Source: a virus
IMG/VR virus record: IMGVR_UViG_3300037502_002720
Location: 1-22,452 of that record
DNA length: 22,452 bases
Strand: one strand, 5' to 3'
Shown here piece by piece: positions 4,396 through 17,621 of this stretch. Positions within the stretch are counted from its first letter, which is position 1. Every line of letters starts with the position of its first letter. The notes below the pieces were generated by a model. It saw nothing but the letters and a program-made list of their open reading frames with translations, had not been told where the DNA came from and searched no databases. A program made the position numbers and the translations under genes.

Positions 4396-4870
4396 CGCAA
4401 CCGCAGCCGGCGGCCAGAACCGCGTGGCATTCCTCGACATGATCGCGGCGAGCGAGATCGGCGCGGCGCTGCTCGCCAAATCGGACGATGGCTACAACGT
4501 GCTCGTCGGATCGACGGCAGCGCGGCCGCTGCTGTTCTCGAGTTATGCGAGTCACCCGAACGTCTTCAACGCGGAGTTCAATTCGACGGCCGCCGGCCGC
4601 TACCAGATCCTGTACCGCTGGTGGCGCATCTATCAGGCGCAGATGAAGCTGCCTGACTTCGGGCCGGTGTCACAGGATCGCTACGCACTGCAGCAGCTGC
4701 GCGAGCATGGTGCGCTCCCGCTGATCGACGCCGGCCGGTTCCGCGAGGCGGTCGCAAAGGTGTCGAACGTGTGGGCCAGTCTGCCGGGTGCCGGCTACGG
4801 TCAGCATGAGAACGACATCGAGCGGCTGCTCGCCGCGTACCAGGCGGCCGGCGGGGAGGTCACGGCATGA
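4382..4870 (+). CDS. Endolysin, lambda R-type lytic transglycosylase
   Basis: A 162-residue cell-wall hydrolase that cleaves the glycan strands of peptidoglycan. It follows lambda R along its length: A-F-L-D-M-I-A-x-S-E near residues 16-25, G-Y-N-V-L-V-G, the S-Y-x-x-H-P segment, S-T-A-A-G-R-Y-Q, D-F-G-P-x-S-Q-D, a G-A-L-P-L-I-D block, and the C-terminal N-x-W-A-S-L-P-G-A-G-Y-G-Q. Glu25 matches the catalytic glutamate of lambda R. The length equals that of the family, so the gene looks intact. There is no signal peptide or N-terminal anchor, so export should depend on the upstream holin. AAGGAG at 4369-4374 sets the ATG. The stop overlaps the Rz start (ATGA). Confidence 0.93.
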   Translation: MARIDATAAGGQNRVAFLDMIAASEIGAALLAKSDDGYNVLVGSTAARPLLFSSYASHPNVFNAEFNSTAAGRYQILYRWWRIYQAQMKLPDFGPVSQDRYALQQLREHGALPLIDAGRFREAVAKVSNVWASLPGAGYGQHENDIERLLAAYQAAGGEVTA

Positions 4871-5343
4871 CGATCCTCGACCCGCGCCTCTGGCTGGCCT
4901 TCATTGCCGCGCTCGCGATCACCGCCGGCGGCTGCTACTTCAAGGGGCACGCCGATGGCGTGCGCGTGACGGCCGCTGCGGCGCAGAAGGCGCAGCTCGC
5001 CGCAGTCGATGCGGCCCGCGCCGAAGAACAACGCCGCACCGCGGCGCAACAGGAGATTGCGAAAGATGCGAATCAACAACGAACTGCCGCGCTCGCGGAT
5101 GCTTTTGCTGCTCGTGCTGCCGCTGGCAGCCTGCAGCAGCGTGTCGACCAGCTCGTCGCAGCCGCCCGCCATCCCGCCACTTCCGCCGGAAGCCCGGCAG
5201 CCGGCGACGCCCTCGATCTGCTTGCCGACGTGCTCAGCCGCGTTGACGAGCGCGCGGGAGAGCTGGCAAAAATCGCTGACGAGCGCGGCATCGCCGGCCA
5301 GCAGTGCGAGCGCGACTACGACGCGCTGACGGCCGTAAAATAG
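4867..5343 (+). CDS. Rz-like inner-membrane spanin subunit
   Basis: A 158-residue protein with one N-terminal membrane anchor (about residues 8-24), followed by a long Ala/Gln/Arg-rich helical region that should form a periplasmic coiled coil. This is the architecture of Rz i-spanins, which join with Rz1 lipoproteins to fuse inner and outer membranes in the last step of lysis. The start overlaps the endolysin stop by four bases. A complete Rz1 frame is embedded inside it at +1, which is the strongest support for the assignment. The C-terminal C-E-R-D-Y-D-A-L is also a common Rz ending. Confidence 0.88.
   Translation: MTILDPRLWLAFIAALAITAGGCYFKGHADGVRVTAAAAQKAQLAAVDAARAEEQRRTAAQQEIAKDANQQRTAALADAFAARAAAGSLQQRVDQLVAAARHPATSAGSPAAGDALDLLADVLSRVDERAGELAKIADERGIAGQQCERDYDALTAVK
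5066..5329 (+). CDS. Rz1-like outer-membrane spanin lipoprotein (nested in Rz)
   Basis: An 87-residue lipoprotein read in a different frame, wholly inside Rz. A short basic N-terminus is followed by a hydrophobic L-L-L-L-V-L-P-L-A-A-C stretch. The lipobox L-A-A-C places the lipidated cysteine at residue 23. The mature part is Ser- and Pro-rich (P-P-A-I-P-P-L-P-P-E-A-R), typical of Rz1. ATG 5066 is preceded by AGGAG at 5051-5055. An internal ATG at 5099 would shorten the signal peptide but keep the lipobox. Nested Rz/Rz1 pairs are well established in lambdoid phages. Confidence 0.85.
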   Translation: MRINNELPRSRMLLLLVLPLAACSSVSTSSSQPPAIPPLPPEARQPATPSICLPTCSAALTSARESWQKSLTSAASPASSASATTTR

Positions 5344-5348
5344 CTCTG

Positions 5349-5395
5349 GCGCGCCGGTTCGGGTCCGGTCGAAGATGGCGCGCACTTTCTTCTTC
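5349..5395 (+). terminator. Possible terminator after the lysis cassette
   Basis: GCGCGCC at 5349-5355 can pair with GGCGCGC at 5377-5383. The loop is about 21 nt and itself contains CCGG repeats. A T-rich but interrupted run, TTTCTTCTT, follows at 5386-5394. It lies six bases past the Rz stop. The long loop and broken T tract make this a moderate candidate only. Confidence 0.35.
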
Positions 5396-5476
5396 CTGCT
5401 ACAAATCCGCACCTCGCTTTCTCAAGTCATTGATTTTTAGCTGATGTAGTTTCCGGTCCCCGGCACCATCCCACTC

Positions 5477-5623
5477 TGTAGCGCAAGCTATCCTGCCTGT
5501 AGCAAACCCAATCCCAATAAGGCTTTATGTGCTATCTTCCCGATCCAAGAAGGTAGCCGCGTTGTAGCGAAAACAAGCCGTTTTTGCACCCGCGTGCACC
5601 AGAAATGCACCATGATTTGCACC
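5477..5623. repeat. Two families of short direct repeats, possible attP arm sites
   Basis: Three copies of TGTAGC (5477-5482, 5498-5503, 5563-5568), each followed by a purine/A-rich tail, precede four copies of TGCACC (5585, 5595, 5606, 5618). The TGCACC starts are 10, 11 and 12 bases apart, close to one helical turn. The cluster ends just before the ATG of an integrase-like stub at 5636. Repeats beside an integrase gene are often arm-type integrase or excisionase sites. No core sequence can be identified. Confidence 0.5.
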
Positions 5624-5709
5624 AAGGGGGGCAGGATGGCGACATACACGAAGCGCGGTGGCGTATGGCGCGCGGCGATTTCCTGAGCCAGTTCGGTGAT
5701 TTCGGTCAT
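5488..5709 (-). pseudogene. Last gene of the leftward operon, truncated and fused to the integrase region
   Basis: The start is convincing: ATG at 5709-5707 overlaps the Lar stop by four bases, as elsewhere in this operon, and M-T-E-I-T-E-L-A-Q-E-I-A-A looks like ordinary coding sequence. After about residue 13-15 the frame runs antisense through the integrase stub, the TGCACC repeats and the upstream repeat region, giving a sequence unlike a folded protein (73 codons in total). I read it as the 5' end of a gene whose remainder was deleted. It is possibly still translated as a junk-tailed peptide. The original function is unknown. Confidence 0.45.
5636..5686 (+). pseudogene. Integrase N-terminal remnant (16 codons)
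   Basis: ATG 5636 follows a G-rich ribosome site (GGGGGGCAGG) and encodes M-A-T-Y-T-K-R-G-G-V-W-R-A before the reading frame changes character and stops at TGA 5684-5686. M-A-x-Y-x-K-R-x-G-x-W-R-A is the usual opening of the arm-binding domain of phage tyrosine recombinases. It lies immediately after a cluster of phased repeats. The rest of an integrase (about 350 codons, with the R-H-R-Y catalytic residues) is absent. The stub abuts the 5' part of a leftward gene, so a deletion joined the two. The family call rests on 13 residues plus context. Confidence 0.5.
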
Positions 5710-5903
5710 TTCTGTTCTCCCTCACTAGCAGGGGCGCGGCGATTCCACTTAGCAATCGCCGATTCGATAGACGTGTGCCCCGCCGCTGCCGGCAAAATGC
5801 AACCCGGCGTTTGACACGCGACATACCACCATTCGTCCGGATCTATTTCCTCGGCCACGTAAGGCGGCTTTCCGCAGAACGGGCACGGTAAGACGTTGCT
5901 CAC
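5706..5903 (-). CDS. lar: Lar-like restriction alleviation protein
   Basis: A 65-residue zinc-ribbon protein. It has L-P-C-P-F-C-G near the N-terminus, then W-Y-V-A-C-Q-T-P-G-C, then the closing S-A-I-A-K-W-N-R-R-A. This arrangement is the hallmark of the Lar family, whose Rac-prophage member relieves type I restriction of incoming DNA. The four cysteines should bind one zinc. The start is GTG at 5903 with AGGAGG upstream, overlapping the stop of the preceding gene (GTGA). An anti-restriction role here rests on family knowledge and fits with the orphan methyltransferase in the same operon. Confidence 0.8.
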   Translation of the reverse strand: MSNVLPCPFCGKPPYVAEEIDPDEWWYVACQTPGCILPAAAGHTSIESAIAKWNRRAPASEGEQK

Positions 5904-9025: not shown

Positions 9026-9372
9026 GGCTTGACCTCTGCATGCGTTGCATAGACCGCGTACGGGCCGTCTTCACTGTCTCCAATCTCGATCAGCCACCAG
9101 CCGGGCTCAGGCGACGGATCCCATGCGCTGATGTCGAGGTTCCCGTTGTCGAAGTACGAGACGTAGGCCGGATGATCCATGCTCTCGTTACCGAGGTGGT
9201 AGATCGACGTCTTGATGCCGGCGCGCTTTTCGAGGTCTTCCCATTGCTGCGGCGTGCAGTGCTCAGCGCCGTCCATCGTGACCGTCCAGAAATGGAGTAG
9301 ATCCGGGTGAATGAAATAGCCGTCTTGGTCGCGCACGATGGGGATCTGCTGGAGAATCGGTTGGTCGTTCAT
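9022..9372 (-). CDS. Hypothetical acidic protein (116 aa)
   Basis: A soluble acidic protein starting M-N-D-Q-P-I-L-Q-Q. It contains D-G-A-E-H-C-T-P-Q-Q-W-E-D-L-E and P-G-W-W-L-I-E-I-G-D-S-E-D-G-P-Y-A-V-Y, so it is probably a small alpha/beta fold. CGGAG precedes ATG 9372, which lies two bases after the upstream stop. Its first five codons are the same as those of the preceding gene (see findings). Function is unknown. Confidence 0.7.
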   Translation of the reverse strand: MNDQPILQQIPIVRDQDGYFIHPDLLHFWTVTMDGAEHCTPQQWEDLEKRAGIKTSIYHLGNESMDHPAYVSYFDNGNLDISAWDPSPEPGWWLIEIGDSEDGPYAVYATHAEVKP

Positions 9373-9374
9373 GG

Positions 9375-10121
9375 TTACTCCGCGTCGATCATCCGCGAGA
9401 ACAGGTCATGCGCGCTGGCCTGAAGTTGCTTGACGGTCGGTTCGAGCTTCGCCCCTGCGGCGGCCCCTGCGGCGGCCCATGCGGCGTCCCATGCGGCGGC
9501 CCATGCGGCGTCCAGTGCGGCGTCCCATGCGGCGTCCCATGCGGCGTCCCATGCGGCGGCCCATGCGGCGACCCATGCGGCGCCCCGTGCGGCGTCCAGT
9601 GCGGCGTCCCATGCGGCGGCCCATGCGGCGACCCCTGCGGCGGCCTGTGCGGCGGCCGCGCCCTTCTTGGCGGCATCCAGCTTCGGTTGTGCCGCCTGCA
9701 AGTCGGCAACGCAGGTGATCGGCGGCAAGGCTTTCAGCGCGTCGGCATGGTGCGCGAGCTGCGGATTCAGCGCGAGCCATGCGGCGCAGTAGGTGCGCAC
9801 GATCCAATCCATCGCCATCCAGCCGCGTTTTTGGGAAAGCTCGGGACCCTTGTTGGTACCTGGCAGACGCGTGATGTAGATCTTCAACTGCGCGCGTTCT
9901 TCATCGGATCGCATGCCGTCGTTCCACGATCTGCCGAACTGAGCGAGGATCGGATCGACGCACTTGGGTGAGTCGCTGAACTGCTCGCCGGCAAACATGC
10001 TGACGACCTCGAGCAGACAATGCCCCTCTTCAGGCGATTTATGGCCGCCGTGATGGATGGTGAGCGTTTCGAGATCTTCGATGGTCAGTTTCATAGCGTT
10101 CTCGTATGGTTGGTCGTTCAT
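9375..10121 (-). CDS. Protein with conserved N-terminus and Ala-Ala-Trp tandem-repeat helix
   Basis: A 248-residue protein. The first 130 residues look globular. They contain L-T-I-H-H-G-G-H-K-S-P-E-E-G-H-C-L-L-E-V-V-S and F-G-R-S-W-N-D, a theme found in proteins of unknown function outside phages as well. From about residue 155 to 223 the chain is a tandem repeat of the four-residue unit x-A-A-[W/L/R/G], with x mostly Asp, Ala, Val or Gly. A four-residue period on a helix puts Trp along a slowly turning stripe and Asp on a neighbouring one. The C-terminal 25 residues are ordinary. It starts at ATG 10121 with GAGGAAA upstream. The function is unknown; repeat number is probably variable. Confidence 0.75.
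   Translation of the reverse strand: MNDQPYENAMKLTIEDLETLTIHHGGHKSPEEGHCLLEVVSMFAGEQFSDSPKCVDPILAQFGRSWNDGMRSDEERAQLKIYITRLPGTNKGPELSQKRGWMAMDWIVRTYCAAWLALNPQLAHHADALKALPPITCVADLQAAQPKLDAAKKGAAAAQAAAGVAAWAAAWDAALDAARGAAWVAAWAAAWDAAWDAAWDAALDAAWAAAWDAAWAAAGAAAGAKLEPTVKQLQASAHDLFSRMIDAE
9451..9654. repeat. 12-bp tandem repeat inside the AAW protein gene
   Basis: About 17 imperfect copies of a 12-base unit (on + of the type GCGGCGTCCCAT, with variation at the last six bases) encode the x-A-A-[W/L/R/G] units on -. Third-position and first-codon changes distinguish the copies, so the array is not freshly amplified throughout. It also creates long open frames on the other strand and in the other frames; those are shadows. 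Confidence 0.9.
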
Positions 10122-16571: not shown

Positions 16572-17285
16572 TCAGCCCGAGCGATAGATGACGCGGCCGA
16601 CAATGTGCACGAACTCGAGCTTTTCGGGCGGCACGATCTTGTCGGGATAACGGGGATTGTAGGAGTGCAGGATCAGGCCGCCGCCAGCCTCCTTGAAGAT
16701 CTGCTTCACAAGAGGCTCATCCTGGAAATAGATAGCGTAGCGCTCACCATCCATGATCCGAGTTGACGTGACGTCGACCATGATGACGTTTTTGTCCTCG
16801 GCCCATGGTTCCATGCTGTCACCACGCAGCACCAGCAACTTGCAGTCTTGCGGGCGCGCCCCCTTTGCCTTGAAAAACGCCGCGTTGAACGGCAGGGCAC
16901 GCTTCTCACGCACTTCCCACTGAATCAATCCATTCCCCGCCGAAAAATGGTAGTCGAACCGGTCGATCCAGATACGGTCTTCATCCGGCTCCAAGTCCTC
17001 GGGATTATCCCAGATAGTGACATTTCCCTTTTCGGCAGGAAGAAGGGGTTTCTGTCCGCTTTTCGGAAGATCGGGACCGCGTCCCTTTTCTTCGAGCAAC
17101 CACGAGGTATCGAGCTGGAGCGCATCGCTCAGCTTCTGGATCGTAGCCATATCGGGCTGAGTGGTCGTTCCCTTCAAGATGCGATTGATGGTCGGCTGCG
17201 GCACGCCGGATAGCCGGCTGAGAGCGCTCTGGCTCTCAATGCCCCGCACCTTCATCGCTAAGTCGAGTCGTTCGGCGAGATTCAT
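16572..17285 (-). CDS. CI-like repressor (XRE helix-turn-helix + S24 peptidase)
   Basis: A 237-residue lysogeny repressor. Residues 1-60 form an XRE-type DNA-binding domain (S-A-L-S-R-L-S-G-V-P-Q-P-T-I-N-R-I-L-K-G). A linker of about 50 residues follows, then a LexA/CI-type S24 domain. The catalytic pair is Ser157 in R-G-D-S-M-E-P and Lys194 in P-L-V-K-Q-I-F, spaced 37 residues as in LexA. Ala116-Gly117 in F-S-A-G-N-G is a plausible self-cleavage site, so RecA/SOS induction is expected. The frame extends upstream to 17573, but ATG 17285 starts the HTH domain. That ATG coincides with the predicted transcription start of its promoter, so the mRNA may be leaderless. Confidence 0.93.
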   Translation of the reverse strand: MNLAERLDLAMKVRGIESQSALSRLSGVPQPTINRILKGTTTQPDMATIQKLSDALQLDTSWLLEEKGRGPDLPKSGQKPLLPAEKGNVTIWDNPEDLEPDEDRIWIDRFDYHFSAGNGLIQWEVREKRALPFNAAFFKAKGARPQDCKLLVLRGDSMEPWAEDKNVIMVDVTSTRIMDGERYAIYFQDEPLVKQIFKEAGGGLILHSYNPRYPDKIVPPEKLEFVHIVGRVIYRSG

Positions 17286-17291
17286 GCCCGA

Positions 17292-17321
17292 ACTATACGT
17301 AACAGAATAAGCATCGCTCAA
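17292..17321 (-). promoter_or_regulatory. Repressor promoter (PRM-like), leaderless output
   Basis: On - the -35 is TTGAGC (17321-17316), the spacer is 18 bp, and the -10 is TATAGT (17297-17292). Counting seven bases on, transcription would start at 17285, the A of the repressor ATG. Lambda cI transcribed from PRM is leaderless in the same way. A CTATACG half-operator overlaps the -10. Confidence 0.6.
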
Positions 17322-17378
17322 GCCGCTATCCGTTCTTGCATTGACAAACCTATCCATCATCGTATAGATTGCGTATAG
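17293..17378. promoter_or_regulatory. Operator cluster OR (repressor/Cro sites)
   Basis: The best site is CTATCCATCATCGTATAG at 17350-17367, an inverted repeat of CTAT/ATAG arms lying between the PR -35 and -10 and overlapping the latter. Weaker copies with the CTAT arm start at 17326 (24 bp away, the lambda OR1-OR2 distance) and at 17293, over the repressor promoter. An extra CGTATAG occurs at 17372-17378. Confidence 0.6.
17341..17368 (+). promoter_or_regulatory. Rightward early promoter PR
   Basis: TTGACA at 17341-17346, a 16-bp spacer, and TATAGA at 17363-17368, giving a start near 17375. It faces Cro and the replication genes. Spacing and the operator embedded in the spacer are the same as in PL. 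Confidence 0.8.
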
Positions 17379-17402
17379 GTGAATAACTGTTCGAGCCAAA
17401 CC

Positions 17403-17621
17403 ATGGACCTGCGCCCCCCCAGCGAACTGCTTGCCGAGATCAAGCAAGCGACGAAAGAAGGTGAAATTGCTCTCGCGAAGCGCCTCGGCATTTCGCAGCC
17501 CACCGTAAATCGGCTGCTGAACGGCCAGGTGGACTGTTCGTCGAGAACTCTCCGTGCCATCCAGCGTGTTCACGCTGAGATCGTGGGCAGTAATGCCGAC
17601 TCTGTTCAGGTGCCCGCATGA
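17403..17621 (+). CDS. Cro-like transcriptional regulator
   Basis: A 72-residue helix-turn-helix protein, the first gene behind PR and divergent from the repressor. The DNA-binding motif is A-L-A-K-R-L-G-I-S-Q-P-T-V-N-R-L-L-N-G. The recognition part (S-Q-P-T-V-N-R-L-L) is very like that of the repressor (P-Q-P-T-I-N-R-I-L), consistent with both binding the same operators. ATG 17403 is preferred. GTG 17379 is in frame but only about four bases after the predicted transcript start. No strong Shine-Dalgarno is visible. The stop overlaps an ATG at 17618 (ATGA). Confidence 0.82.
   Translation: MDLRPPSELLAEIKQATKEGEIALAKRLGISQPTVNRLLNGQVDCSSRTLRAIQRVHAEIVGSNADSVQVPA

Follow-up and report, generated by a model that had tools for sequence, protein, structure and literature searches.

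An engineered counterpart of the locus analyzed here exists in another Burkholderia phage, phiBP82.2: no phage was released once int had been deleted from the prophage, and release of the int-deleted phage returned when int was supplied in trans (PMC13026187). The window (the whole 22,452-nucleotide stretch of IMG/VR record IMGVR_UViG_3300037502_002720) resembles that construct in lacking a working integrase while keeping its attachment site. It differs in being natural and of another phage family, and in having lost an excisionase-like (xis-like) gene as well, whereas phiBP82.2 is an engineered myophage located at tRNA-Arg. The closest intact system is a prophage module of Burkholderia at tRNA-Leu(UAA), carried by six IMG/VR contigs (L010-L015), by Burkholderia singularis (L018), and by the prophages of G040 and G050. 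This module shares with the window the int start, the xis-like gene, the attP core, the arm repeats and the convergent gene order; what sets the window apart is that 1,197 bp between the two gene starts are missing. Based on these comparisons, the window very probably derives from a temperate phage of a Burkholderia family integrating at tRNA-Leu(UAA), altered by one 1,197-bp deletion between short direct repeats. It would represent a clean natural case in which a temperate phage loses its integration and excision module by one short-repeat deletion while immunity and attP are kept. This is an ordinary kind of phage mutation and leaves the view of phage biology unchanged; new here are the apparently xis-like nature of the second lost gene, a seemingly intact attP with its core in tRNA-Leu(UAA), and the presence of phage DNA on both sides of attP.

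The convergent int and xis-like genes

To find relatives of the two interrupted genes, we searched IMG/VR contigs with a degenerate pattern for MATYTKRGG, which matched the six contigs L010-L015, and with an independent degenerate pattern for MTEITELAQEIA, which matched these six contigs again and also L016 and L017. In the six shared contigs the two separately searched patterns lie 1.2 kb apart in opposite orientation. MATYTKRGG opens a tyrosine integrase of 345 amino acids that is whole in all six, with the L013 product matching PF00589 (E 7e-21) and phrog_1 (E 2e-55); the 13-residue match to an integrase claimed in the original prediction is thus found in a bona fide member of that family. 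On the strand opposite to int, MTEITELAQEIA opens an 82-aa protein in L010-L015, which at full length matches phrog_66 (excisionase and transcriptional regulator; E 1.4e-5) and scores weakly against HTH_17 (E 0.036, below the cut-off). The second lost gene may therefore be described as a small helix-turn-helix, excisionase-like gene, a role suggested by a weak profile match. The two genes run tail to tail with overlapping ends; in L013, int ends at 1038 and the leftward ORF at 1023. The features of the window that bear on the comparison are as follows.

4867-5343, plus strand: Rz-like spanin, last late gene before attP (phrog_312, E 7e-40)
5348-5451, plus strand: P arm, matching the attR-side sequence of G040, G050, G001 and G004 up to the core
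5452-5468, plus strand: predicted attP core TCCGGTCCCCGGCACCA (17 bp), identical to the 3' end of the host tRNA-Leu(UAA)
5488-5709, minus strand: fused 73-aa frame, with 14 xis-like residues followed by the antisense of the int start and P' arm
5585-5623, plus strand: four phased TGCACC repeats (P' arm), starting at 5585, 5595, 5606 and 5618 (spacing 10, 11, 12)
5636-5674, plus strand: retained 5' end of int (13 codons), 39/39 nt identical to the intact int of L010-L015
5667-5674, no strand: probable deletion junction, 8-bp microhomology GGCGCGCG (39 + 43 - 74 = 8 nt, against L010, L012 and L015)
5667-5709, minus strand: retained 5' end of the xis-like gene (14 codons), MTEITELAQEIAAR, 43/43 nt identical to L010, L012 and L015
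5706-5903, minus strand: Lar-like restriction alleviation protein (PF14354, E 7e-11)
16572-17573, minus strand: CI-like repressor, ORF as listed, with the real start probably internal (phrog_4, E 3e-40)
17379-17621, plus strand: Cro-like small HTH ORF (phrog_4583, E 2e-6)

The junction and the missing segment

The rightward ATG at 5636 opens the frame MATYTKRGGVWRAAIS, 16 codons closed by a stop codon at 5684-5686, of which 13 codons are those of int and the last three are antisense of the xis-like gene. The leftward frame begins with an ATG at 5709, and this start shares 4 bp with the end of lar, whose stop is at 5706. The layout described in the original prediction, with a 16-codon frame following phased repeats and stopping inside the antisense of a leftward gene whose start overlaps lar by four bases, is accurate in its coordinates. 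Its statement that both genes are cut at one point also holds, but the breakpoint lies at 5667-5674 rather than 5672-5680, and its position is ambiguous by the 8 shared bases. The catalytic domain is absent, with no PF00589 match in the record, which makes the rightward frame a remnant and not an integrase. The 39-nt int piece by itself scores about E 5e-15 against the 40-kb relatives; together with the agreement of two separately searched patterns on six contigs, this argues that the identity at the junction is not due to chance. As a separate observation, a run of six G precedes the int start (window 5625-5636), where L015 and L018 have five.

Either frame might be read as a functional short gene, given that the start and ribosome site native to int are still present in the 16-codon frame and the operon start in the 73-aa leftward frame. 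However, the last three of the 16 codons come from the antisense of the xis-like gene, the junction was found in no other record, and no stop interrupts the P' antisense frame in the intact L018 either; its openness therefore means little, and its length is not something selected here. We consider such a gene scarcely credible and treat both frames as by-products of the junction, the 73-aa fusion being accidental.

Measured from the int ATG to the xis-like ATG, all seven relatives compared (L010-L015 and L018) have 1,271 bp, against 74 bp in the window, which leaves exactly 1,197 bp missing. The octamer GGCGCGCG is present in both int and the xis-like gene of the closest relatives (L010, L012 and L015) and only once in the window, and the parental copies around the breakpoint, GTGGCGTATGGCGCGCG and GTGGCGTCAGGCGCGCG, form a direct repeat of 17 bp in which two positions differ. 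Homology of 8 bp or longer is rare in that region, at about 0.05% of breakpoint pairs. Since 8 bp are common to both breakpoints and lie within this imperfect direct repeat, a microhomology-mediated deletion is the favored mechanism. It would have run from nt 32-39 of int, where one repeat lies, to its counterpart within the 5' part of the xis-like gene, which converges on int, removing 332 of the 345 int codons and approximately 68 of the 82 xis-like codons and leaving attP and the arm repeats in place. The original prediction had proposed just such a single loss of most of a convergent integrase and its neighbor, and it is borne out by relatives in which both genes are whole, convergent and constantly spaced, and by the exact 39-nt and 43-nt identities on alignment to them.

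These phages are strongly mosaic and relatives match in short blocks, so that stepwise exchange between phages could be invoked in place of one deletion. Yet on either side the int and xis-like starts stand in the order, orientation and register seen in the same relatives, and both flanks are 100% identical to those relatives up to the microhomology, which makes mosaic exchange very improbable. A single short-repeat deletion is the simplest account.

The main remaining doubt about the deletion is a same-strand chimera formed at the short repeat, during amplification (e.g. multiple displacement amplification) or assembly, in which case the real phage would carry int and xis whole. The short homology at the junction, its single occurrence and the status of the contig as an IMG/VR fragment all accord with such an artefact: the junction 29-mer was not found in genome and viral contig collections, nor its degenerate form in viral contigs, although these collections may omit the record of the window itself or those very close to it. 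Against it, a chimera would need to dominate the consensus, and a match of just 8 exact bases is too short to make a k-mer assembler collapse the two copies. Moreover, contig G013 has also lost int, together with attP, by a different route (see below), and module loss does seem to occur. We therefore regard a chimera as unlikely and retain the deletion as the preferred reading. This deletion did not turn up in our literature search. Against phage records, BLASTN with window 5344-5720 produced nothing beyond weak, short matches. The plasmid collection revealed no plasmid carrier, yielding one 35-nt match, at the lar edge only.

The attachment site and its host tRNA gene

In the G040 prophage, the attL side matches the window from position 5452 onward and the attR side, 38.5 kb away, matches it up to about 5470; the G050 prophage has the same attL/attR arrangement. 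The sequence TCCGGTCCCCGGCACCA is common to the attL, attR and attP cores, and at attL it forms the 3' end of tRNA-Leu(UAA), as identified by ARAGORN with its intron option. In integrated relatives the P arm adjoins host DNA via the core at attR. The 10/11/12 spacing of the TGCACC repeats is kept in L018, L052 and L053, and one or two units are changed in L046 and L048; we infer that the repeats are putative integrase arm-type sites. Judged from sequence, attP of the window appears intact, with recombination predicted at its tRNA-Leu(UAA) core. These matches fix tRNA-Leu(UAA), a gene with a group I-like intron, as the site where this family of Burkholderia prophages attaches.

The Rz gene and P arm of the window are contiguous with the core, the P' arm and the int remnant. 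With phage DNA on both sides of attP, the contig is not read as a prophage at the usual site; it therefore stems from phage DNA that was free, or from a copy in tandem or at a different place. The same contiguous attP is found in G005 (L015), where int is intact. Continuity from P through the core to P' fits a deletion tolerated in lytic growth.

In several Burkholderia-type genomes, the tRNA-Leu(UAA) attB gene seemingly carries at its anticodon, at position 36, a group I-like intron of 247-267 nt (L046:1601-1934; also L048, L053 and L018). The L046 intron scores 38 bits against RF00028 (E 2e-8, by E-value threshold), below the gathering score of 50, and it is missed by Rfam at the gathering threshold. 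Because of the intron, default ARAGORN reports no tRNA at attL, and the intron option recovers tRNA-Leu(taa). We found no paper clearly on tRNA introns in Burkholderia.

Expected phenotype and a possible second loss of the module

Neither a tyrosine (PF00589) nor a serine (PF00239) recombinase was detected within the 22.4-kb linear record, which covers about half a genome, and no serine recombinase (PF00239) was detected in 13 relatives. In line with the intact immunity region of the original prediction, the CI-like repressor and the Cro-like ORF are both present and open. The claim that the phage keeps repression agrees with the open repressor; the accompanying claim that it cannot integrate alone is an extrapolation from a record in which no integrase gene was found elsewhere but which spans only about half of the genome. 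On this gene content and by analogy with phiBP82.2, the phage should still repress and replicate lytically, without unaided integration or excision. Exceptions would be a further recombinase encoded in the half of the genome that is missing, or Int from a related prophage that acts in trans and recognizes the intact attP.

The 40-kb metagenomic phage contig G013 (IMGVR_UViG_3300009622_000001), the source of L016, offers a second comparison. It resembles the window in a related early region, a truncated xis-like gene and the absence of an integrase in 40 kb, and differs in that the whole of int and attP is gone and the left side of the join consists of a tail-fibre-like gene and a palindrome, through which the shortened xis-like gene is connected. 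The join (L016 ~9190-9240) contains a perfect palindrome whose two arms are each 18 bp long (TTGACATCCTCCCCGGCC TGAA GGCCGGGGAGGATGTCAA), reminiscent of a terminator or of an IS200/IS605-type end. Provided that both contigs are sound, this group has lost the module on at least two occasions, in L016 by an independent route. The further idea of stable integration-defective members, which would keep the repressor, attP and arm sites, drop int and xis, and lysogenize only via the Int of a co-resident relative, strikes us as quite improbable.

Elsewhere in the window, a leftward 248-aa ORF (9375-10121) contains a long run of Ala/Trp/Asp repeats (AAWDAAWDAA...), and the repeat DNA occurs in L018 too.
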